Assembly: GCF_964019765.1 (NCBI RefSeq)
Contig: NZ_OZ026461.1
Coordinates: 62,001-126,000 of the forward strand
DNA length: 64,000 bases
Direction: 5' to 3'
DNA from: Spiroplasma endosymbiont of Panorpa germanica
GTDB lineage: Bacteria; Bacillota_I; Bacilli_A; Mycoplasmatales; Mycoplasmataceae
Part shown: positions 14,914 to 62,348 of the stretch, piece after piece
Numbering within the stretch: position 1 is the stretch's first letter
Layout: every line of letters starts with the position of its first letter
The notes under the pieces: model-generated
Told to the model about the DNA's origin: nothing
Seen by the model: only the letters and a program-made list of their open reading frames with translations
The model's database searches: none
Position numbers and translations under genes: made by a program

Positions 14914-17757
14914 ATGAACAAGGATATAATTAAAGTAAAAGGCGCGAGAGAACACAATTTAAAAAATGTTGAAATCGAAATACCAAAAAATAAGTTAGTT
15001 ATTTTTACAGGACTATCAGGAAGCGGTAAGTCTTCACTAGCTTTTAATACAATTTATGCTGAAGGTCGTCGAAGATATATCGAATCACTTTCAGCCTACG
15101 CTAGACAGTTTTTAGGCGGAAACGAAAAACCAGATGTAGATTCAATTGAAGGTTTGAGTCCTGCTATCTCTATAGATCAAAAAACAACTTCTCATAATCC
15201 TAGATCAACTGTTGGAACTGTCACAGAAGTTTATGATTACTTGAGATTGCTTTACGCTAGAGTGGGAACCCCATTTTGTGTTAACAATCACGGTGAGATT
15301 AAGGCGTCATCTATTAAAGAAGTTCTTGAGTCCATAAATAATGAAACTCAAATTGATGAGCAAGTTTTTATCTTAGCTCCGATTGTTGTTGACAAAAAAG
15401 GAAGTTTCAAGGATCGTTTGGATAAATTACGTGCAGAAGGTTTCATAAGAGTACAAATTGATGGTACAATAATTAACCTGGACGAGGAAATTGATTTAGA
15501 TAAAAATGTCCGTCACAACATTGATATTGTGGTTGATAGATTAATTTATCAACAAGATGAAGAAATCAAATCCAGAATTTATTCAGCTATCGAGGTTGGA
15601 TTAAAATATGCTAACGGACTTATCAAGGTACATTACCCCAACAAAAATAAATTAGAAAAATTGTTTTCAACTATTTATTCATGTAAGGTTTGTGGGTTTA
15701 GTATTGCTGATATGGAACCGCGACTATTTTCTTTTAACGCACCTCAAGGTGCTTGTCCTGATTGTACTGGATTAGGGATCAATCTAGAACCCGATCAAGA
15801 TTTAATTATCCCAGATAAATCGGTTTCAATTTCTGAGGGAGGAATCGTTTACTACAAAAACATTATAGCTAAAGATAATATTGAATGACAAAAATTTAAA
15901 ATATTGTGTGATCATTATTATGTTGACTTAACAGCTCCAATCAAACAACTAACAGAAAAACAAAAAGAAATGATTTTGTGAGGAAGTGATGAGCCCATTG
16001 AATATAAAATTAAATCATCAGGGGGAAATACTTTTGCTTCTTTTGATTACATTGAAGGTGTAGCTAGTCTAATCCAAAGAAGGTATATGGAAACTAAATC
16101 TGATGAAAGTCGTAAGTGATATGCTAAATTTATGGCTTCTAAAACTTGTAAAACTTGCAAAGGTGCTAGATTAAACAGTACGGCTTTAGCCATCAAAATA
16201 AATAATTTTTCAATTAATGACTTCACGAATTTAGCAATTGACGAAGCTTTAGATTTCTTACTAAACATTAAATTAAATGCCAATCAAGAAAAAATTGCTA
16301 ACTTAGTTTTGAAGGAAATAATTTCACGAATTAGTTTTTTAAATAAGGTTGGACTTAGTTATTTAAGTCTTTCAAGAACGGCTACAACTCTTTCTGGGGG
16401 AGAAGCCCAGAGAATTAGGTTGGCCAAACAAATTGGTTCACAGTTAACAGGGATTCTTTATGTTTTAGATGAACCCTCAATTGGATTACATCAAAGAGAT
16501 AACGATAAATTGATCGCCACATTGAAGCACTTAAGAGATTTGGGAAATACTTTAATCGTTGTAGAACATGATGAAGACACCATGTGAGCTAGTGATTGAA
16601 TTGTTGATATTGGACCAGGAGCTGGAATTCACGGAGGAGAAATAGTTTTTGAGGGAACTGTGCAAGATATCGTTAAAGACGAAAAATCTTTAACTGGTAG
16701 ATACTTGAGCGGTAAGGAATCTATTAGTGTTCCAAAAAATTACCGCGGAGGTAATGGTAAAAAAATTGAAATCATCGGAGCTAGCGAAAATAATTTACAA
16801 AATATTGACGTAACAATTCCGCTAAATAAATTTATAACAATCACTGGAGTTAGTGGAAGTGGTAAATCAACTTTAATGGAAGATATTATTTACAAGAGCT
16901 TGAAGAAAAATTTACACAACGAGCAAATTAAACCCGGAGCTCATAAATCAATTAAAGGATTAGAAAATATTGATAAAGTTATATACGTATCTCAAGAACC
17001 GATCGGTAAAACTCCGAGATCTAATCCAGCAACTTATACTTCGGTTTTTGACGATATTCGTGATTTATACACCGAAACTACTGAAGCTAAAATTCGTGGT
17101 TATAAAAAGGGACGTTTCAGTTTTAATGTTCCTGGGGGGCGTTGTGAAAATTGTCAAGGTGATGGAATCATTACTATCTCGATGCAATTTATGCCAAGTG
17201 TAGAAGTTGTTTGTGAAATTTGTGACGGTAAGCGTTATAATGAACAAACACTACAAGTACTTTTCAAAGGTAAAAATATTTATGATGTTTTAAATATGAG
17301 TGTTGAAGAGGCGGCGATATTTTTTGAAAATATTCCGCAGATTAAAAATAAACTTGATACAATTTTAGAAGTTGGTCTGGGATATATTAAGCTAGGGCAA
17401 AATGCTAAAACTCTTTCTGGAGGAGAAGCGCAAAGAATCAAACTATCAACTTATCTTTTAAAAAAACAAACAGGGAAAACTTTATTCCTTTTAGATGAAC
17501 CAACAACTGGATTGCATATTGATGATGTTAAAAGGTTATTAGCTGTTCTAAACCGTTTGGTTGACTTGGGTAACACCGTCTTAACAATTGAACATAATTT
17601 AGATTTCATTAAAGTATCAGATTACATTATTGATTTAGGACCTGGAGGAGGAACTGGGGGAGGTAGAGTTGTTGTGACTGGAACGCCTGAACAAGTAATT
17701 AAAAGCGACACTAGTTACACTGCTCAATATTTGAGAAAGTATTTAAAACGTGATTAG
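14914..17757 (+). CDS. uvrA: Excinuclease ABC subunit A
   Basis: UvrA recognises DNA damage and loads UvrB. The 947-residue protein has two ABC modules: Walker [11 protein letters not shown] near residue 33 and [10 protein letters not shown] near 650, each with its LSGGEAQRI signature and DEPSIGLH / DEPTTGLH Walker B region. Zinc modules show CxxC pairs (CKVC...CPDC; CKTC; CENC...CEIC). Five or more TGA codons read as Trp. Its last 8 bases overlap the start of folC, so expression is probably coupled through uvrB-uvrA-folC. Confidence 0.96.
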
Positions 17758-28000: not shown

Positions 28001-28409
28001 GGGGATGTCCCGGTTTCGACAGGATATCTCTGGTGAAAAGTCGCAGTGGTCTGGTAGACCATAATACTTCTAGGTTTGAAAAAATGCAAACAAAAAACGC
28101 GAAAGCGATAACTTCGAAATGCCAGCATTCATGATCAATAACGCATCAGCTGGAGTTGCATTAGCAGCTTAATAATTCTTAAGAATTATAGCACTTCCGC
28201 TAACTGGTAATTTGTACTTTACTAGTTTTGTGTAAGCCTTGTACAATAGATTTAATGATCGACAGTAAATTAAATCGAAATTCCACTGTCAACGTTGTGA
28301 CTAATTTTTGATAACTTCATTATTTATGACGTATTCAAAGTTATCTAAACTGTAGAAGCTTTTCATTGGACTATTTTGGACGCGGGTTCGATTCCCGCCA
28401 TCTCCACCA
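28001..28409 (+). ncRNA. ssrA: Transfer-messenger RNA (tmRNA)
   Basis: The 5' end GGGGATGTCCCGGTTTCGACAGG and the 3' end GCGGGTTCGATTCCCGCCATCTCCACCA form the tRNA-like half with the T arm and a CCA end encoded in the DNA. The tag reading frame starts at GCA 28086 and ends at a double stop TAATAA (28170-28175). It gives 28 residues beginning ANKKRESDNF, with EMPAFM in the middle, and ending AGVALAA. This resembles the Spiroplasma kunkelii tag as I recall it. tmRNA with SmpB rescues stalled ribosomes and tags the peptide for proteolysis. Confidence 0.97.
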
Positions 28410-39886: not shown

Positions 39887-40813
39887 ATGTTAGTTACAAT
39901 GATAGCATTTATTTCCGGTGTTTTCGCTATTTTCCTAATAGCCTCAATTTCTGGAGCACTTTCAGAAAGAGCTGGTGTGGTAAATATCTCCATTGAGGGT
40001 TTTATGACAATGGGGGCTCTATCGTTTGCCATTGCAGGAAGCTATATGAATGCACAAGATGATAGTAACTGAACTCAGATTATTGCCTTGTTAATAGCCA
40101 TGGTAGTTTCTGGAGTATTCGCTTTGCTACATGGTTATGCTTCAATTAGATTGAAATCAAATCAAGTGGTTGTTGGTACTGCAATAAATATTCTAGCACA
40201 AGGAATTGCGCTTTACTTGGCAACATCAGGAATTCTAGGTTCAGATGGTACAAGAATTCCAACTAATTACTCAGTAATTAGTTTTGATGACAACAAAAAT
40301 ATTTTCAACCTTTATTTAATTATTGCGGTTTTAATTGCTGCAACAGTTGGAGCATTTTTCACCTTTACAAAAATTGGTAAAAGATACGCCGCTGCTGGTG
40401 AAAATCCCAACGCTGTTGATGCGGCTGGAATTAATGTAATTAAATACCGTTACATCGCAATTGTGATTTCAGGAATGTTAGCTGGATTATCGGGTGCAAT
40501 GTTCGTAGTTATAAAAACTTCCGGTTCATTTAGAGGAAGCACCGATGGGTGAGGATTCTTAGCACTAGCAATTATGATTGTGGGTCAATGAAGAATTAAA
40601 TTTATTGCCCCAGCAGCGTTATTATTCTCGATTATGTTTGGACTCGGGGAATACCTATGATCTGTTGACGGTGTTCCAAACTCATTCAAGGATAATGCAG
40701 ATCTATTTAAAGTATTACCATTTATCGGTTCTCTACTTGTTATGATTATTTTCAGTAAGTGGTCCCAAGCGCCAAAAGCGTCAGGAATTCCTTTTGATAA
40801 ATCAAAAAGATAG
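39887..40813 (+). CDS. Nucleoside ABC importer permease, second subunit
   Basis: A 308-residue membrane protein of normal length. It has about nine hydrophobic helices and the family segments GALSERAGVVNISIEGFMTMGAL and AAAGENPNAVDAAGINVIKYRYIAI. It should pair with the preceding permease to form the channel of the importer. TGA codons in SNWTQ, GWGF, GQWRI and EYLWS read as Trp. Last gene of the unit; a strong terminator follows 11 bases after the stop. Confidence 0.93.
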
Positions 40814-40824
40814 AAAATCATTAA

Positions 40825-40855
40825 AAAAATCTCAGAGTTTCTGAGATTTTTTTAT
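40825..40855 (+). terminator. Terminator of the nucleoside transporter operon
   Basis: Perfect 12-bp stem AAAAATCTCAGA/TCTGAGATTTTT with loop GTT, then a T-run. Confidence 0.88.
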
Positions 40856-40896
40856 TTTAGTCACGTAGAAATTTGAAATCATTTTCAAGAGTTTAA

Positions 40897-40922
40897 AAAA
40901 ACCGACCCAACAGATCGGTTTT
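40897..40922 (-). terminator. Terminator of the minus-strand duplicated membrane gene
   Basis: AAAACCGA/TCGGTTTT inverted repeat. On the minus strand it is followed by a T-run, 7 bases downstream of the stop at 40929. Confidence 0.7.
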
Positions 40923-40928
40923 GATATT

Positions 40929-41564
40929 TTAAATATTAATTAAATTTAAGTCGGTTCTTAATTGCTTGGTTTTACCTTTACTTGGCAATTTTGTTAGAGT
41001 TAATATTGCGGCTACAAACATAACAACGCAACTAATAACCCCAATTCACCATCCTAAAATTATGAAAATATCAAAACCCCAAAATAAGAATGGTGATATT
41101 ATTGTCAGAAATATAATTCAAGGAATTATTGAAAATATTCCTACCCAAGCCCCGATTTTTTGTATTTTTTTACTTTCAGAAAATAATAGAGCAATTGCCA
41201 CAAGTGGTATACAAAACAATAAATAAGATGAAATTACAAACCCAACAAAACCCCAAAATAAGAATGGTGATATTATTGTCAGAAATATAATTCAAGGAAT
41301 TATTGAAAATATTCCTACCCAAGCCCCGATTTTTTGTATTTTTTTACTTTCAGAAAATAATAGAGCAATTGCCACAAGTGGTATACAAAACAATAAATAA
41401 GATGAAATTACAAACCCAACAAAACCTCAGAACTGGTCAAAATCTAAGTGCTTAATTGCGGTCAGTGCACGTCTTAAACCAGTCAAAGATGAGAGGAAAT
41501 TTAGCATAAAGTATGCTTGAGCTCCGGTGGCTCCCATCATGGCAATTCTTGTTCATTTTATAAT
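40929..41564 (-). CDS. Small membrane protein with internal 58-residue duplication
   Basis: About 211 residues ending at TAA 40929-40931. The start is uncertain. A GAGGTGGT sequence (minus strand, near 41570) favours an ATT codon at 41567 or 41564, and the first ATG is at 41538-41540. The protein contains two exact copies of a 58-residue unit that begins WGFVGFVISSYLLF, has two membrane helices with a SESKKIQK turn between them, and ends IISPFLF. It then has one more helix and a basic tail (KLPSKGKTKQLR). Without the repeat it would be about 153 residues with four helices. Family not recognised. Confidence 0.7.
41072..41426. repeat. Perfect 174-bp tandem duplication
   Basis: Copy 1 is 41072-41245 and copy 2 is 41246-41419; I compared them base by base and found no difference. 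The 7-base sequence CAAAACC occurs at the start of copy 1, at the junction and just after copy 2, as expected for slippage or unequal crossing over at a short homology. 174 is a multiple of three, so the coding frame is kept. Confidence 0.95.
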
Positions 41565-41715
41565 AATGACCACCTCATTTAGATTATTATATCTATTTAT
41601 ATAATACATTAAACTGGTTTTGCTTTCAATTTTAAATTATAAAAATCTATTTATTTAAGAAAAAAACTGTATTTTACGATAAAATTATTTTACCAAGATT
41701 GAAAGAGGAATAAAA

Positions 41716-44193
41716 ATGTATTCAAATAAATTAATTGAGTCTCTAAATAAAGACTTAGCAACTGAATTTAAAAATTTAAAGCAAATAAGTAAGGATTTTA
41801 GTAAAACCTTTGATGGTGTTTCTAGAATGGTTATGTTAGACCGATATGCACAAAAAGACTTATTATTAAAAACTCTGAAAGTCGGAGATTTAGTAGTCAC
41901 AACAATTAAAGACGATCCGGTTTTTCCTTCGCGTGGAATTGGAACAGTAATTAAAGTTTTAAATGATGGACGCTACGAAGTTGAAATCGAACAAGCTTAT
42001 GTGGGAATAATAGATCCAGAGTCAACTATTGAAAGCAAAAGAGAAAATGTCATATTCAAGAATAAAACTGAATTGGACAAACCCTTAGAACTTTTTTGAG
42101 AACAAATCGCTTATCGTGTTGGGCATGCTTTAGGTAAAATCGAAAAAACTGATCAAAAATTGATTAGTGAAAAATTCACTGAAGAACTAGAAAAATTAAA
42201 CGTTATTCCAGCGGGACGAGTTTTGTTTGGAGCAGGAAGTGATAGTGCTGTAACATTTTTTAACTGTTATGTAATGCCGTTCATTAAAGATGATCGTGTA
42301 GGCATCGCTGAACACCGTCAACAAGTGGCAGAAATTATGAGTCGTGGAGGAGGAGTCGGTACCAATGGTTCAACACTAAGACCTCGAGGTGCAATTGCCA
42401 AATCGGTTGGAGGAAAATCTTCAGGATCGGTTAGTTGGTTAAATGACTTATCAGGATTGACCCATTTAATTGAACAAGGAGGTTCAAGAAGAGGTGCTCA
42501 AATGATTATGATGTCAGATTGACACCCAGATATAATAGAGTTCATAATTTCTAAAATGCAAAACACAAACATCTTATTGTGATTGCGCGAACATTCTCAA
42601 TCTCATTTAATTCGTGAGCAAGCAAATAATAAATTAAGATTTAAAAACTTAGGCCCAAATGAAAGAAGAACTTATGAAGCTATTTTGGCTAATAAGAAAA
42701 ACATCGATAAGGAAACCGTCCAAGAAGCTCAGAAAAATTTAGATGCTGGGGGAACTTGAGTAGTTTCAAATCCAGACTTCCTTTCAGGAGCAAATATTTC
42801 AGTGACATTAACTGATAAATTTATGAGTGCAGTTGAAAGAGACTTGAACTGAGAATTAAAATTCCCAGACCTAGATTCATTTGATGCTAAACAAAAAAAC
42901 TTCTATGACACTAATTGAGATAAAATGGGAGATGTTTTTGAATGAGAAGCTCAGGGTTATCCAGTTAAAGTTTATGAAAAAATCCCTGCAAGAGATTTAT
43001 GGGATTTAATAAACTTCTGTGCAACTTATTCAGCAGAGCCAGGAATCTTCTTTATTGACAAAGCAAACAAAATGACAAACGCTCAAGGTTATGGAATGAA
43101 GGTTGTGGCAACTAACCCCTGTGGGGAACAGCCACTAGCACCTTATTCAGTTTGTAATTTAGCTGCGATTAATTTAGAGAACTTTGTTAATAAAAAAACT
43201 AAAGAAGTTTTATACAATGAATTAGCAGAGACAGTGGCCAATTGTGTCCAAATGCAAGATAATGTAATTGATGCAACCCCCTATTTTTTAGAAGCAAATA
43301 AAAAACAAGCTTTAGGTGAGCGAAGAGTTGGTCTCGGGGTTATGGGTCTACACGACATGTTAATTTGAGCAGGACTTCGTTATGGTTCACCAGAAGCTAA
43401 TAAAGTAGTTGATAAAGTATTTGAAACAATTTGTTTGAGTGCTTATCGTAAATCTATTGAATTGGGTAAAATCAAAGGTTCATTCCCATTCCTAACAGAT
43501 AAAAAGAAATTTATTAAATCAGGATTTATTCAATCATTACCAAAGGATATCCAAGAAGGGATTCTTAAAAATGGTTTAAGAAATTCTCACCTTCTAACTG
43601 TTGCTCCAACTGGATCTACAGGAACCATGGTTGGTGCTTCAACAGGGTTGGAACCTTATTTTGCCTTTTCATATTTTAGATCTGGACGACTAGGTAAATT
43701 TATGGAAGTAAAAGCTAGAATTGTAGAAGAATGATTAACTTATAATCCTGAATTTGTTGACAAGCCTTTGCCTGATATTTTTGTTTCAGCTATGGAGTTA
43801 TCACCAGAAGAGCATGCTGATGTTCAATGTATTATTCAAAGATGAGTTGACTCTTCTATTTCTAAAACAGTTAATGCACCAAAAGGTTATTCAGTTAAAC
43901 AAGTCGAACAAATTTACTCACGACTTTACAAAGGTGGAGCCAAAGGTGGAACAGTTTATGTTGATGGAAGTCGAGACACTCAAGTGTTATCATTAAATGA
44001 TGATGATCAAACTATTGATGATGGATTAGAAGTAATTAGCAACAATAAACTTGCTAAACCAATTGAGGGTGAACAAAAGATTGGAAACGAAATTGGTGAT
44101 TTATGTCCAGTTTGTTCAATTGGAACCTTAATCGATTCAGCTGGTTGTGTCACTTGTAATAACTGTGGGGCACAATTAAAATGTGGTCTATAA
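41716..44193 (+). CDS. nrdJ: Adenosylcobalamin-dependent class II ribonucleotide reductase
   Basis: An 825-residue enzyme that reduces ribonucleotides to deoxyribonucleotides using adenosylcobalamin as radical source. The key residues are present: active-site Cys184 (FFNCYV), the NPCGEQ motif with Asn467, radical Cys469 and Glu471, partner Cys480 (SVCNLAAINL), and the phosphate loop APTGSTGTM. The C-terminus carries a cysteine-rich module (CPVC...CVTCNNCG) expected to bind zinc and pass reducing equivalents. No small radical subunit is encoded nearby, as expected for class II. At least nine TGA codons read as Trp. The following gene codes for cobalamin adenosylation, which supports the cofactor assignment. 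Confidence 0.93.
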
Positions 44194-44215
44194 AATAGTT
44201 TAAAGGAAGTTTAAC

Positions 44216-45292
44216 ATGAACCAGAGAGTCCAACTATTATTTAAAATTGCAATTATACCAGTTTATGCTGCAATGGTAGTTGGGGCTAAGGAAGCTTTAG
44301 CGCTTGTTCCAAATATTGAATTAGTTTCATTCCTATTATCATTTGCTGCCTTAGTATTTCCTTTGACAATGGTATTTGGAATAATCACGGTATTTACATT
44401 TATTGAAGTATTTATATATTCATATGGAGTCGCTCAATGAATGTTGTTATATTTAGTGGCTTGACCTATTTTGGTTTTAATCACAGTTTTATTTCGACCA
44501 TTAATAAAAAGACACTGATGGATTTTTGTCATTATAAATGGTTTATTTGGATTAAGTTTTGGATTAATTGACGCTACCTTAAATTATTTTGTCTGATTTA
44601 ATTTTGACTTTCCCGTAACAATTGCTTACTATTTGCGAGGAGTTACTTTTGATGTAATTCACGGGGTTGGTAATTTTATGATAGCCATAATTTTATATCA
44701 TCCGGTAATGGCTCTATGAAATAGTCATTTAAAAAAATATTTAGGAGGTAGTGGTTTCGTGAAACAAGAAAAAGGATATATTCATTTAATAATGGGAGAA
44801 GGTAAAGGAAAAACCTCAGCTCTTAATGGTATGGGGTTGCGCGCTGCTGGAGCTGGTTGAACGGTTAAATACGTGAGATTTCTAAAAAACCGACCTACAA
44901 GTGAAAATAAGATGCTTAAAAAAGCCAAAATTAAGGTTGAAAACTTTTACCACTTTTCTAAGAAGTTTATTTGAGAGATGAATCCAGAAGAGATTCAAGA
45001 ATTTAAAATTGAGACCCAAAAAGGCTTTGATTACTTAAAAAAAGTCTTACAAGACTCAAATAATGACATGGTTTTAATAGATGAATTGTTGGGTGCTATT
45101 GAAAATAAATTAATTGATGAAGATGAATTAATATCTGTTTTAAAAAATCGTCGACCAGGAATTGAAGTAGTAATTTCTGGGAGGTATGCATCTGCTAATT
45201 TAATTAAATTAGCAGATTTAACAAGTAAAATTGAACCGGTCAAACATTATTTTGACCAAGGTGTTGAAGCTAGAAAAGGAATAGAATTTTAA
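44216..45292 (+). CDS. ECF substrate component fused in frame to cob(I)alamin adenosyltransferase
   Basis: One uninterrupted 358-residue frame from ATG 44216 to TAA 45290-45292. Residues 1-180 form a hydrophobic ECF S-component (VPNIELVSFLLSF, then YLVAWPILVLITVLFRP, then a GLFGLSFGLIDATLNYF helix and RGVTFDVIHGVGNF). Residues 182-358 are a CobO/BtuR-type adenosyltransferase with P-loop GEGKGKTS (194-201), VLIDELLGAIE, SGRYAS and a KHYFDQGVEARKGIEF end. It should bring cobalamin in and convert it to adenosylcobalamin for NrdJ, encoded 22 bases upstream. A strong AGGAGGT and GTG (44743-44761) lie at the junction, so a separate enzyme could also be made. Confidence 0.85.
44743..44761 (+). promoter_or_regulatory. 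Internal Shine-Dalgarno and in-frame GTG at the S-component/CobO junction
   Basis: AGGAGGT at 44743-44749, then 9 bases, then GTG 44759-44761 in the frame of the fusion. CobO proteins normally begin close to this point (KGYIHLIMGEGKGKTS follows), so internal initiation could give a free adenosyltransferase of about 177 residues besides the fused form. Confidence 0.65.
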
Positions 45293-45750
45293 TGAAATCG
45301 GGAGCAAAAATATGATTAGCAAGCTCGGCTGCAGCGATTGTGCTGGGAACTTCTATAATTTTAAATACTGTATTTATATCAAAATATCAAACTTTAAAAG
45401 ATGGTTTGAAGGAAGACGCAAGCTTAAGACTAACAGTTGAGGCTTACGATATTGATGGGGGTATGTTCCATCGAAATGAGTTTTCAAACCTAACCCCAGC
45501 AAGCCTTTATGAGATAACCAAAGAGGATCCTAAGTTTGAATACGAAAGCTCATCTTTTGGAATGTTTTTGAAAAATCTTGATAATAAGGTCAAAAACAAC
45601 CAATACATTTCAATTAATTCCCCAACCCATGAAAAATGTGCTGGTAAAAGTTTAGAAAATCCTAAGAGACCAAATAGTTGTCAGGTTGGTGCATCTGATT
45701 TGATCATAAGTCAACCAGAGTACTTCATTTTTCAAATTGAGCAACTATAG
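45292..45750 (+). CDS. Membrane-anchored extracellular protein with DUF4430-like domain
   Basis: A 152-residue product whose ATG overlaps the TAA of the preceding gene (TAATG), so it is translationally coupled. Residues 5-28 form one N-terminal membrane anchor or uncleaved signal without a lipobox Cys. The rest should be outside the cell. The pattern ASLYEITKEDPKFEYESSSFGMFLKNL, then NNQYISINSPTHEKC, GASDLIISQPEYFIFQIE resembles DUF4430, the fold related to the C-terminal domain of transcobalamin and intrinsic factor. Two Cys (KCAGK, SCQVG) could form a disulfide. With its neighbours it could be the cobalamin-capturing surface part. The domain call rests on pattern only. Confidence 0.6.
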
Positions 45751-45758
45751 CAAAATTT

Positions 45759-45790
45759 AACTTCTGAAATAAATTTCAGAAGTTTTTTTT
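45759..45790 (+). terminator. Terminator of the nrdJ operon
   Basis: AACTTCTGAAAT / ATTTCAGAAGTT inverted repeat followed by TTTTTT, 8 bases after the DUF4430-like gene. Confidence 0.88.
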
Positions 45791-45871
45791 AATTTCGGTA
45801 CTATTTTTATACAAAATATATACAATTAATATTTATTAATCTGTCGCAATAAAATCAACTCTTTATGTTAA

Positions 45872-45877
45872 TATAAT
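45872..45877 (+). promoter_or_regulatory. -10 box upstream of deoD
   Basis: TATAAT 23 bases before the deoD ATG; no clear -35 sequence. Confidence 0.5.
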
Positions 45878-45900
45878 TGTGTAAAGGCAGGTATAAAAAA

Positions 45901-46605
45901 ATGACACCACATATTGAAGCTAAAAAAGAAGAAATAGCAAAAGTAGTAATAATGCCAGGAGACCCACTAAGAGCTGAAGTTATTGCTAAGAAGTTTTTGA
46001 CTGACTACAAATTAGTTAACAAAGTTAGAAACATGTTTATGTTTACAGGATTTTATAAAGGAACTAAAGTTACCATTGCAGGAAGTGGAATGGGATGTGC
46101 TAGTATTGGAATTTACTCATATGAACTATATAAATTCTATGATGTTGACCACATTATTAGAGTAGGATCGGCTGGAGCATATACAGATAAACTTAAAGTT
46201 TATGATATTGTTAACACAAAAGAAGCTTTCGGAGAATCCCCATATCCAAAATTGGCAGCAGGAATTGATAGCAATTTAGTTCCTTCTTCAAAAGAGTTAT
46301 ATGAATTGATTAACAAAACTGCAGCAGAAAATAAAATTTCTGTTCATGAGGGAAAAGTTCACTCAAGTGATGTTTTTTACCGCAAAACTGATTCAATGGC
46401 ATTTGCTAAAGAAAATAAATTAGATTGTGTGGAAATGGAATCGCTTGCATTGTTTGCAAACGCCATTGAAACTAAAAAAAGTGCAGCTTGTTTGTTAACC
46501 ATTTCAGATAGCTTTGTAACCAAAGAGGTAACAACAGCTGAAGAGCGACAAAACAACTTTATGGATATGATTAAAATTGCTTTAGAAACAGCGACAAAAT
46601 TATAG
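45901..46605 (+). CDS. deoD: Purine-nucleoside phosphorylase
   Basis: A 234-residue enzyme that splits purine (deoxy)nucleosides into base and (deoxy)ribose-1-phosphate. The start is ATG 45901 (MTPHIEAKKEEIAKVVIMPGDPLRA); an upstream in-frame GTG is unlikely, since GGCAGGT lies just before the ATG. DeoD-type features are MPGDPLRAEVIA, GSGMGCASIGIY, RVGSAGAY, VEMESLALF and the catalytic Asp in TISDS. It uses nucleosides delivered by the importer at 36281-40813. tsaD starts 1 base after its stop. Confidence 0.95.
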   Translation: MTPHIEAKKEEIAKVVIMPGDPLRAEVIAKKFLTDYKLVNKVRNMFMFTGFYKGTKVTIAGSGMGCASIGIYSYELYKFYDVDHIIRVGSAGAYTDKLKVYDIVNTKEAFGESPYPKLAAGIDSNLVPSSKELYELINKTAAENKISVHEGKVHSSDVFYRKTDSMAFAKENKLDCVEMESLALFANAIETKKSAACLLTISDSFVTKEVTTAEERQNNFMDMIKIALETATKL

Positions 46606-46606
46606 A

Positions 46607-47569
46607 ATGATAATTTTGGCGATAGAATCTAGTTGTGATGAATTGAGCATTGCGATTTTAAATAATGGAAAAGTTTTAACTAACATTATTTCAAGCCAGA
46701 TTAAAGATCACCAGAAATTTGGTGGGGTTGTCCCAGAACTGGCAGCTCGACTACATTTAGAAAATATCGAATTTGTAATTAAATCAGCTTTGAAAGAAGC
46801 TGATTTATCTATTAATGAGATAGAAGCTGTTGGCTACACCCAAACCCCGGGATTAATAGGTAGCTTAATAGTTGGTAAAATCATTGCTCAAACAATTGCT
46901 AGATATTTAAATGTCCCCCTTTATCCTTGCCATCATATCCTTGGTCATATTTACGGAGCTAGTATAGAAAAAGAGTTTGTATATCCAGTTTTAGCTATGG
47001 TTGTAAGTGGTGGGCACACTCAGATTCAACTTTTGAATTCGGTAGAAGATTATGAAATCATTGGTCAAACACAAGATGACGCCATTGGTGAATGTTACGA
47101 CAAAGTTGCTAGATATTTGGGCTTAAATTATCCTGGAGGCCCAGAAATTGATAAACTAGCGAAATCAGGAAACCCCGATGCCTACAAACTACCAATTCCA
47201 AAAACTGAAAATGAGTTTGATTTTTCTTATTCTGGATTGAAAACTGCCTGCATAAACTTAATTAATAAAATGAAGCAAAATAATCAAAAAATTAATATAG
47301 CAGATTTTTCAGCCTCATTTCAAAAGATTGCGGTTGAAGCGATTGCTGAAAAATTTGAAAAAGCCGTTAAGAAATATCAACCCAAAACAATAACGGTGGC
47401 TGGAGGAGTTAGTGCTAACTCTTCAATTCGCCAAAAAATTATGGAAATTGGTGAAAACAATCAAATTAATAACATTATCATTCCTAAATTGGAATATTGT
47501 ACCGATAATGGTGCAATGATTGGAAAATTAACACAAGAAATGATAAATATTTCCAAAAAATTGATATAA
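46607..47569 (+). CDS. tsaD: tRNA threonylcarbamoyladenosine biosynthesis protein TsaD
   Basis: A 320-residue ASKHA-fold protein that completes t6A modification of ANN-decoding tRNAs. It has LAIESSCDELSIAI at the N-terminus, the metal-binding HHILGH motif, VSGGHTQI, and the late VAGGVSANSSIR segment. No TGA codon. Coupled to deoD (1-base gap). Confidence 0.96.
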   Translation: MIILAIESSCDELSIAILNNGKVLTNIISSQIKDHQKFGGVVPELAARLHLENIEFVIKSALKEADLSINEIEAVGYTQTPGLIGSLIVGKIIAQTIARYLNVPLYPCHHILGHIYGASIEKEFVYPVLAMVVSGGHTQIQLLNSVEDYEIIGQTQDDAIGECYDKVARYLGLNYPGGPEIDKLAKSGNPDAYKLPIPKTENEFDFSYSGLKTACINLINKMKQNNQKINIADFSASFQKIAVEAIAEKFEKAVKKYQPKTITVAGGVSANSSIRQKIMEIGENNQINNIIIPKLEYCTDNGAMIGKLTQEMINISKKLI

Positions 47570-60437: not shown

Positions 60438-62348
60438 ATGGTTTCAACAAAATATGGAATTACAAGCACAATTGTTGGAACAATAATTTCACTTTTTGGA
60501 GCACTAATTCAGTTTTTAACCCTTTACTTTGTGTTGCAAAATTTTGGAGCAACATTTAACGGGTTTGTGAAAATCGCCACTGCCATTGGAGCTATTATTG
60601 GGACAGCAGATGGAGCTTTAGGAATTGCCACAACAATTTTGTTGGTCAAGCCGATTGCTCAAAGAGATTGAATTACAGCTAATGAAATTTTTTCAACATC
60701 TAAAAAGAATTATCGTCGTGGAGCAAAATTATCAGTTACCTTACTTATTTTATCAGCAGTATTTTATCCACTTTGAGTAATAATCAGTAGTTCAACAACT
60801 GACTTCTCTAACTTTTTCGATCACTTTGGGATTGTCTTAAACGGAAAGTCAGAAGTGGTGTTCGCCCCATACTGACAAATGCTATTAATTATATTATTAT
60901 TTGGTTTCAAAAATATGGGAGCTGGAATAATATTTGGAGTTTATGAAAATGTTATTGCTGCTGATAGTGAAAATACTGTTAGAAAAATAGTTATTCTTTT
61001 CACAGATGTGGTAGTTTACTCGCTATTCTTTTATCTTCTCACACTAAGGACTGTTGATCCATTAATTCCGTTTCTATCAATGCTTTTATATTCACCAATT
61101 CGGGGTTTCATGATTATGCTTTATGTAAGGCGGAATTATTTATGAATTAAATTTAATCCCGATTTAAATAGTTATCAATTAAAGACCTCAGCTAAGAAAA
61201 TTTCGCGTAGTAGCTTGGGTACAACAGTGTTAATGAATACAGATATACTAATTGCTGCGGTTTTATTGGGTCTGAATGCTTCATCAGTACTTTCGCTTTA
61301 TTTTGTAATTGCTGTTAACATCAGGCTTATTATGACTAATTTCATTACTTCATTTCGCGAGTTCTTTGTGGTTTTAGTAATGAAGAATGGTAGAATTTAT
61401 TGAAATAGCTACGCTAAGTACGAAATTTATACATATATTATTGCCGGCTTTACTTTTATTAATATGTCGATATTATCACCATACTTGGTAAGTGCTTTAT
61501 ACGGTAATCTAATGGAGAACCAGATTGCTAATCCCACTGTAGATAATATTTGAACAGCATCACAATTAATTTTATACCGCTATGTCTTTTATAATCCAAC
61601 TTTTTCTGTAATTTTTGCTGGGATCACTAGTTTATCAATTCTTTGTGAAGCGCAAATGAATATTATTCAGGCAAAAAGTCGTTATGCTGAAGTGACAAAA
61701 GTTCAAAACTATTTAGGATTTAGTTACATTGTAATTGCATTTGTTATAACAGGGATGATTACTTTTAGTAGGTTGGGAGCGGACTTATACTTAGTTTTCG
61801 CTTTAATGGCATTTATGATTTTGAAATTAATTTTCTTATTTATTCGATATTCGTATTTGTGGTTTTATGTTTATCGCTATGCCACTTACAATTCCAATAT
61901 TAAGAACGTATTTCAAAATGCCTTAATTTTGATGATTCCCACAGCAATCTCACCAATAATCCAATTCACAGTTATTGATAATTTGATTCCATTAAATATT
62001 GAAACCTTATCATTTGTACCACTTGTAGGATTATTTTTTACAACTATTTTTGCTTCCATTGGGGTAATATTTATCGTAGCTTTAATTCTTTCCCCAAATA
62101 TGGTTATGGGAATCATTAGGAGATTTCCCATTCTTGGGGAAAGGTATCGACGCAGAAAAGAAGCCGAACGCAAAGAACGTCTTCAAAAAAATAATATTTC
62201 TCTAACAGATTTAAACTCTAAAGGAAATATTATTGTGCAAGAATACATAAGTATCAATGAAGAAGAAATTTCTAAGACTCTTAGCGAGCAGGGTTCCCTA
62301 GAACCAGAAATTCTTGAGTATAAAAAAGTTTATAAATTGAAAGGTTAG
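60438..62348 (+). CDS. Flippase-like (MOP/MATE superfamily) membrane protein
   Basis: A 636-residue protein with about fourteen hydrophobic segments, the layout of polysaccharide flippases of the MOP superfamily. The N-terminal helix pair (ITSTIVGTIISLFGALIQFLTLYFVLQNFGATFNGFVKIATAIGAII) looks like the start of Wzx/MATE-type proteins. The last 80 residues are soluble, with a basic stretch (RYRRRKEAERKERLQK) and an acidic tail. Spiroplasma has no peptidoglycan, so lipid or glycolipid movement is a guess. TGA codons read as Trp. The next gene starts 3 bases downstream. Confidence 0.72.

Follow-up and report, generated by a model that had tools for sequence, protein, structure and literature searches.

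Does a reading frame that joins an ECF substrate component (S-component) to a cob(I)alamin adenosyltransferase encode a real fusion protein, and what would such a protein do? We addressed this for a frame in the Spiroplasma endosymbiont of Panorpa germanica (genome of 1.05 Mb, one contig), within a window of 64,000 nucleotides (positions 62,001 to 126,000 of contig NZ_OZ026461.1, forward strand) whose numbering is used below. With a probability of about 0.8, we take the frame to specify a membrane protein with two functions, a CbrT-type vitamin B12 S-component continued by a CobO domain, in which B12 would be adenosylated by the tethered CobO and supplied to the ribonucleotide reductase NrdJ.

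The joined frame and its two domains

In code-4 translation, the frame opening at ATG 44216 has a single final TAA and no earlier stop, as the first-pass annotation had read it (Table 1). Its seven TGA codons are each read as tryptophan; under table 11 the frame is interrupted at them. TGA is taken as tryptophan in this genome because nrdJ and ecfT, which encode conserved full-length proteins, also hold in-frame TGAs. The start lies 22 bases past the nrdJ stop, with a Shine-Dalgarno of moderate strength, and the 3' end, TAATG, overlaps the ATG of the next gene.

Table 1 Features of the cbrT::cobO locus (window coordinates)
Feature	Position	Strand	Basis or remark
nrdJ, adenosylcobalamin-dependent (class II) ribonucleotide reductase, 825 aa	41716..44193	+	NF005991, TIGR02504
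Shine-Dalgarno of the fusion, AAAGGAAG	44202..44209	+	Sequence; duplex -6.6 kcal/mol
Fused cbrT::cobO frame	44216..45292	+	358 aa (40.9 kDa), code 4; kept in G001 and G002
S-component domain, residues 1-176, CbrT-like, hydrophobic	44216..44743	+	Profile versus 6FNP; single sequence; hydropathy
Internal Shine-Dalgarno AGGAGGT	44743..44749	+	In-frame part of Leu-Gly-Gly; duplex -11.6 kcal/mol
Linker residues 177-181, GGSGF	44744..44758	+	GGNYF and GGIET in sister species
Internal start codon GTG	44759..44761	+	GTG in G001, ATG in G002; in frame with both halves
Predicted CobO/BtuR corrinoid adenosyltransferase domain	44759..45292	+	PF02572; 177 aa (20.3 kDa) from the internal start
P-loop GEGKGKTS of the CobO domain	44795..44818	+	Residues 194-201
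Putative CbrS-like partner, small, N-terminally anchored	45292..45750	+	DUF4430-related family; ATG overlaps the fusion stop
Intrinsic-terminator-like hairpin with T run	45759..45784	+	End of gene cluster

The first-pass annotation had proposed searching related genomes for the same joined frame, and had named a junction stop in all close relatives as a danger to its reading. Both same-genus species compared (G001 and G002) carry the fusion with an unchanged length of 358 residues and with 85% and 80% identity to the one here; the stop is absent from both and present in the next relative. Synonymous divergence of the fused gene is saturated (dS 1.7-2.5) and dN is 0.10-0.16, similar in each domain (dN/dS about 0.06-0.07), which indicates that the S-component and CobO halves are both under purifying selection. 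Since the same 358-residue frame persists in the sisters at saturated dS and low dN, we do not regard it as an error. Deletion of a stop codon by faulty sequencing or assembly would have to recur in three separate, concordant genomes whose linker codons differ, and is vanishingly improbable.

The N-terminal half gave no Pfam match over cut-off. As a single sequence it matched chain A of 6fnp in a PDB search (E 1.4e-6), and a profile of 23 S-domain relatives matched 6FNP at E 1.1e-15, with profile positions 7-160 aligned to 6FNP residues 8-166. This structure is ECF-CbrT of Lactobacillus delbrueckii, an experimentally shown vitamin B12 transporter (PMC5997447). An identification of 6FNP as BtuM was rejected, BtuM being 6FFV. 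The window S-domain contains no cysteine, and none is conserved among the 23 relatives. Given homology that spans the whole membrane domain, an ECF module in the genome and gene linkage with both nrdJ and an adenosyltransferase, we infer a CbrT-type ECF S-component with vitamin B12 as its probable substrate; cobinamide may be taken up too, as it is by CbrT (PMC5997447). Were the substrate something else, for example an unrelated vitamin, the joining to CobO would be incidental. The want of a Pfam match would suit such a reading, but the CbrT homology, the adjacency of nrdJ and the repeated adenosyltransferase neighbours in Bacilli make it very unlikely.

The C-terminal half is matched by PF02572 over residues 185-358, covering the profile from end to end (1-172 of 172; E 2.7e-51; 174.6 bits against a gathering score of 25.7), and its nearest PDB structures are the adenosyltransferases 4hut and 1g5r (E 1e-22). 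The P-loop GEGKGKTS is identical in all three fused species. These matches bear out the earlier claim that an S-component and a complete CobO with an intact P-loop share one frame, and they predict a cob(I)alamin adenosyltransferase. Scores fell below the NCBIfam cut-offs for TIGR00708 (117.7 versus 167.75) and PRK05986 (146.6 versus 185), so that the domain is assigned to the same family but is no called equivalog.

Origin of the fusion and its internal start

Counted from code-4 frames computed for each locus, 3 of the 31 CobO loci compared within the order are fused, all three in this genus. The frame upstream of CobO spans only 2-74 residues in the 28 other relatives, and S-component matches in other CobO-bearing relatives, where present, are separate genes. 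Among the S-component frames listed class-wide, none outside the genus was long enough for both domains, although listed lengths may break at TGA; a scan of genome contigs gave one distant CobO only, a separate gene. The fused CobOs form one clade in the CobO tree (support 100/98), which is unrooted and by itself no proof of a split-to-fused direction.

In the closest split relative (G054), the S-component and CobO genes are adjacent and in the same frame, with one TAA and the cobO Shine-Dalgarno between them. The junction reads TTA GAA TAA GGA GAA ATA TAT ATG in G054 and TTA GGA GGT AGT GGT TTC GTG here; throughout the fused genus it consists of GGA GGT, three variable codons and then GTG or ATG. 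The simplest and most likely history is that a single stop codon between adjacent same-frame genes was lost, and the Gly-Gly of the linker is most likely the former cobO ribosome-binding site, now coding.

The first-pass annotation had also pointed to a good Shine-Dalgarno and GTG at the junction; the Shine-Dalgarno proved strong, and it is conserved together with a start codon. The internal start occupies the position at which the separate cobO gene of G054 begins. The motif lies 9 bases 5' of it in all three species (as GGGAGGT in G002), with equal pairing energy in each, computed against a 16S tail whose sequence we assumed. Of 740 internal in-frame start codons in 38 genes of the window, a single one has a stronger Shine-Dalgarno, and the junction motif equals or exceeds the own-start Shine-Dalgarno in 34 of the 38. 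An in-frame GTG at 17674, close to the 3' end of the gene at 14914-17757, has a stronger Shine-Dalgarno than that of the junction (-12.3 kcal/mol). After Gly-Gly the linker is free to vary (SGF, NYF and IET across the three species), and dN for residues 177-182 is 0.26-0.69 against the whole-gene values given above. Because the Shine-Dalgarno and a start codon (GTG, GTG and ATG) have been kept in all three species, free CobO is probably also made from the same mRNA. Free S-component is not expected, because the junction has no stop.

How should the two CobO products be weighed? The free enzyme could be the working one and tethered CobO a tolerated by-product of the lost stop, without any benefit from tethering. 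A strong Shine-Dalgarno and start codon retained while linker residues vary is what this would produce; so are Gly-Gly third positions unchanged in three species when 18 of 82 fourfold sites are invariant overall, two sites alone being weak evidence. Yet any ribosome that initiates at ATG 44216 has to produce the fusion, which holds for three diverged species, and a stop that is one substitution away at several junction codons has not been regained, a weak argument in that few codons are free to vary. We consider this reading possible but on the unlikely side. We give less credence again to the 41-kDa fusion as sole product, with the internal Shine-Dalgarno a relic or pause site. The counterpart of this motif in split relatives is the ribosome-binding site of cobO, so it might be left over, and RNA around the junction folded no better than shuffles, which provides no extra signal; but an unused motif should decay at saturated synonymous divergence, and here all three species have the same strength and spacing. 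The reading we prefer is a functional fusion accompanied by free CobO.

Neighbouring genes and the B12 inventory of the genome

The fusion stands between nrdJ and a gene for a DUF4430-like membrane-anchored protein. NrdJ scored 1249.6 against NF005991 (cut-off 854) and 558 against TIGR02504 (cut-off 400). The downstream partner gave no match to PF14478, to which 4 of 14 family members do match (best 1e-8); in one Bacilli locus, the gene directly before the S-component matches it at 1.4e-17. Relatives of the partner directly precede a separate S-component in nine Mollicute genomes and in 10 of 20 Bacilli loci; in the Bacilli, a PduO-looking protein follows the S-component at nine loci (four checked by Pfam) and nrdJ is also present at three. 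Since this order matches the nrdJ-cbrS-cbrT-pduO cluster of L. delbrueckii (PMC5997447), we tentatively read the small protein as CbrS-like. It may be a surface B12-capturing companion of the S-component. DUF4430 has been reported from animal transcobalamins as well, in their C-terminal region (PMC4350170).

The partner carries conserved S-x-T-H-x-x-C and C-x-V-G motifs. Two Bacilli loci (L147 and L137) have an S-component and a DUF4430-like gene beside a protein of ~610 aa, in place of nrdJ/pduO. No RNA family or cobalamin riboswitch was found at 40000-47000. Elsewhere in the window, a tmRNA gene lies at 28001-28409, with the tag ANKKRESDNFEMPAFMINNASAGVALAA.

A search for ECF A, A' and T components, also proposed earlier, located one module in the genome. 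The single EcfT (PF02361 over cut-off) has two ABC ATPase genes directly upstream, forming the only EcfA-EcfA'-EcfT cluster, away from the fusion locus. The fusion is the sole PF02572 protein of the genome, in which no PduO adenosyltransferase, no other B12-binding-domain protein and no class I ribonucleotide reductase small subunit was found; the only adenosyltransferase found is the CobO of the fusion, and the only B12 user found is NrdJ. The notion of NrdJ as sole ribonucleotide reductase was rejected, a second enzyme, class III NrdD, being present outside the window (G000:C1:656870-658909, L153). Class III ribonucleotide reductases are oxygen-sensitive, so NrdJ is presumably the one used in air.

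Among 320 genomes of the order, 42 had NrdJ together with CobO or the S-component, 6 had CobO or the S-component without NrdJ, and 2 had NrdJ alone, with NrdJ fragments counted as NrdJ. This co-occurrence (42 of the 50 genomes with either) gave a Fisher p of 1.6e-43, ignoring shared ancestry. At one locus (G036:C2:111000-120500, L095), nrdJ is split over several frames, cobO and the S-component contain stops, and the partner gene appears undamaged. In that genome the B12 route seems to be decaying together, and joint breakage of nrdJ, cobO and the S-component is as expected if they served one pathway.

Proposed function and comparison with known systems

In the mechanism we propose, the S-domain would capture B12 outside the cell, dock on the shared EcfA-EcfA'-EcfT module and let B12 go into the cytoplasm. 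The cytoplasmic C-terminus of the S-domain would run straight into CobO, and the tethered enzyme would turn imported B12 into adenosylcobalamin, trapping it in the cell and feeding NrdJ. Enzymes of this class act as dimers, and free CobO from the internal start could pair with a tethered copy. The two protein products, the mixing of dimers and local adenosylation are all inferred from the locus, and the fusion is known from three species only. The linker is very short and might leave too little room for EcfA and a CobO dimer; a one-sequence AlphaFold model of the fusion (pLDDT 49) was too poor to judge this. Attachment of CobO at the C-terminus is plausible because CbrT with a labelled C-terminus still transports (PMC12075633).

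The first-pass annotation had suggested a channelling device. The single frame holds, and the B12 role gains support from the CbrT family, the nrdJ neighbour and the ECF module. Strict channelling gains none; local trapping at the membrane needs no direct hand-over and is enough to fit the same facts. The free enzyme from the kept internal start might carry most of the work. More tentatively, and at less than even odds, the locus may encode an import-and-activate machine in which attached CobO adenosylates B12 before it can diffuse off and the second start tunes the balance between tethered and free CobO. We know of no other vitamin S-component covalently joined to the first enzyme that acts on its vitamin. 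A search of the open-access literature found no S-component/adenosyltransferase fusion, its limited scope making this absence weak evidence.

Among known systems, the ECF-CbrT cluster of L. delbrueckii (6FNP; PMC5997447) shares with this locus a homologous S-component, nrdJ, an adenosyltransferase, a small partner gene and an ECF module elsewhere in the genome. Here, however, the adenosyltransferase is of the CobO type instead of the PduO type, it is joined to the S-component in one frame, and the partner gene follows the fused gene. Thiobacillus denitrificans BtuM with btuR (PMC6072759) likewise sets a B12 S-component-like protein beside a CobO/BtuR-type adenosyltransferase, but as separate genes, whereas the two are joined here. 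BtuM has an invariant cysteine as cobalt ligand (Cys80 in T. denitrificans), in contrast to the cysteine-free S-domain of the window, and its hosts mostly lack an ECF module, with one exception known (PMC6072759), whereas the module is present here. With CobA/CobO/BtuR enzymes (1g5r, 4hut) the C-terminal half shares the full domain, the P-loop and the C-terminal motif; compared with Salmonella-type CobA, the first ~24 residues are absent and the S-component stands in their position.

As far as the open-access literature shows, what is new is the covalent joining of S-component and adenosyltransferase, restricted to one genus; the components and the gene cluster were already known. The fusion puts pressure on transport models in which the S-component topples and departs from the ECF module, since it would have to do so with a cytoplasmic enzyme of 20 kDa attached, one that is normally a dimer. 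It also makes a route from operon to fusion visible, in which one stop codon was probably lost and an old ribosome-binding site turned linker. For BtuM and BtuR, metabolic trapping by a neighbouring adenosyltransferase was proposed from gene neighbourhood (PMC6072759), and this natural fusion makes that idea testable in one polypeptide.
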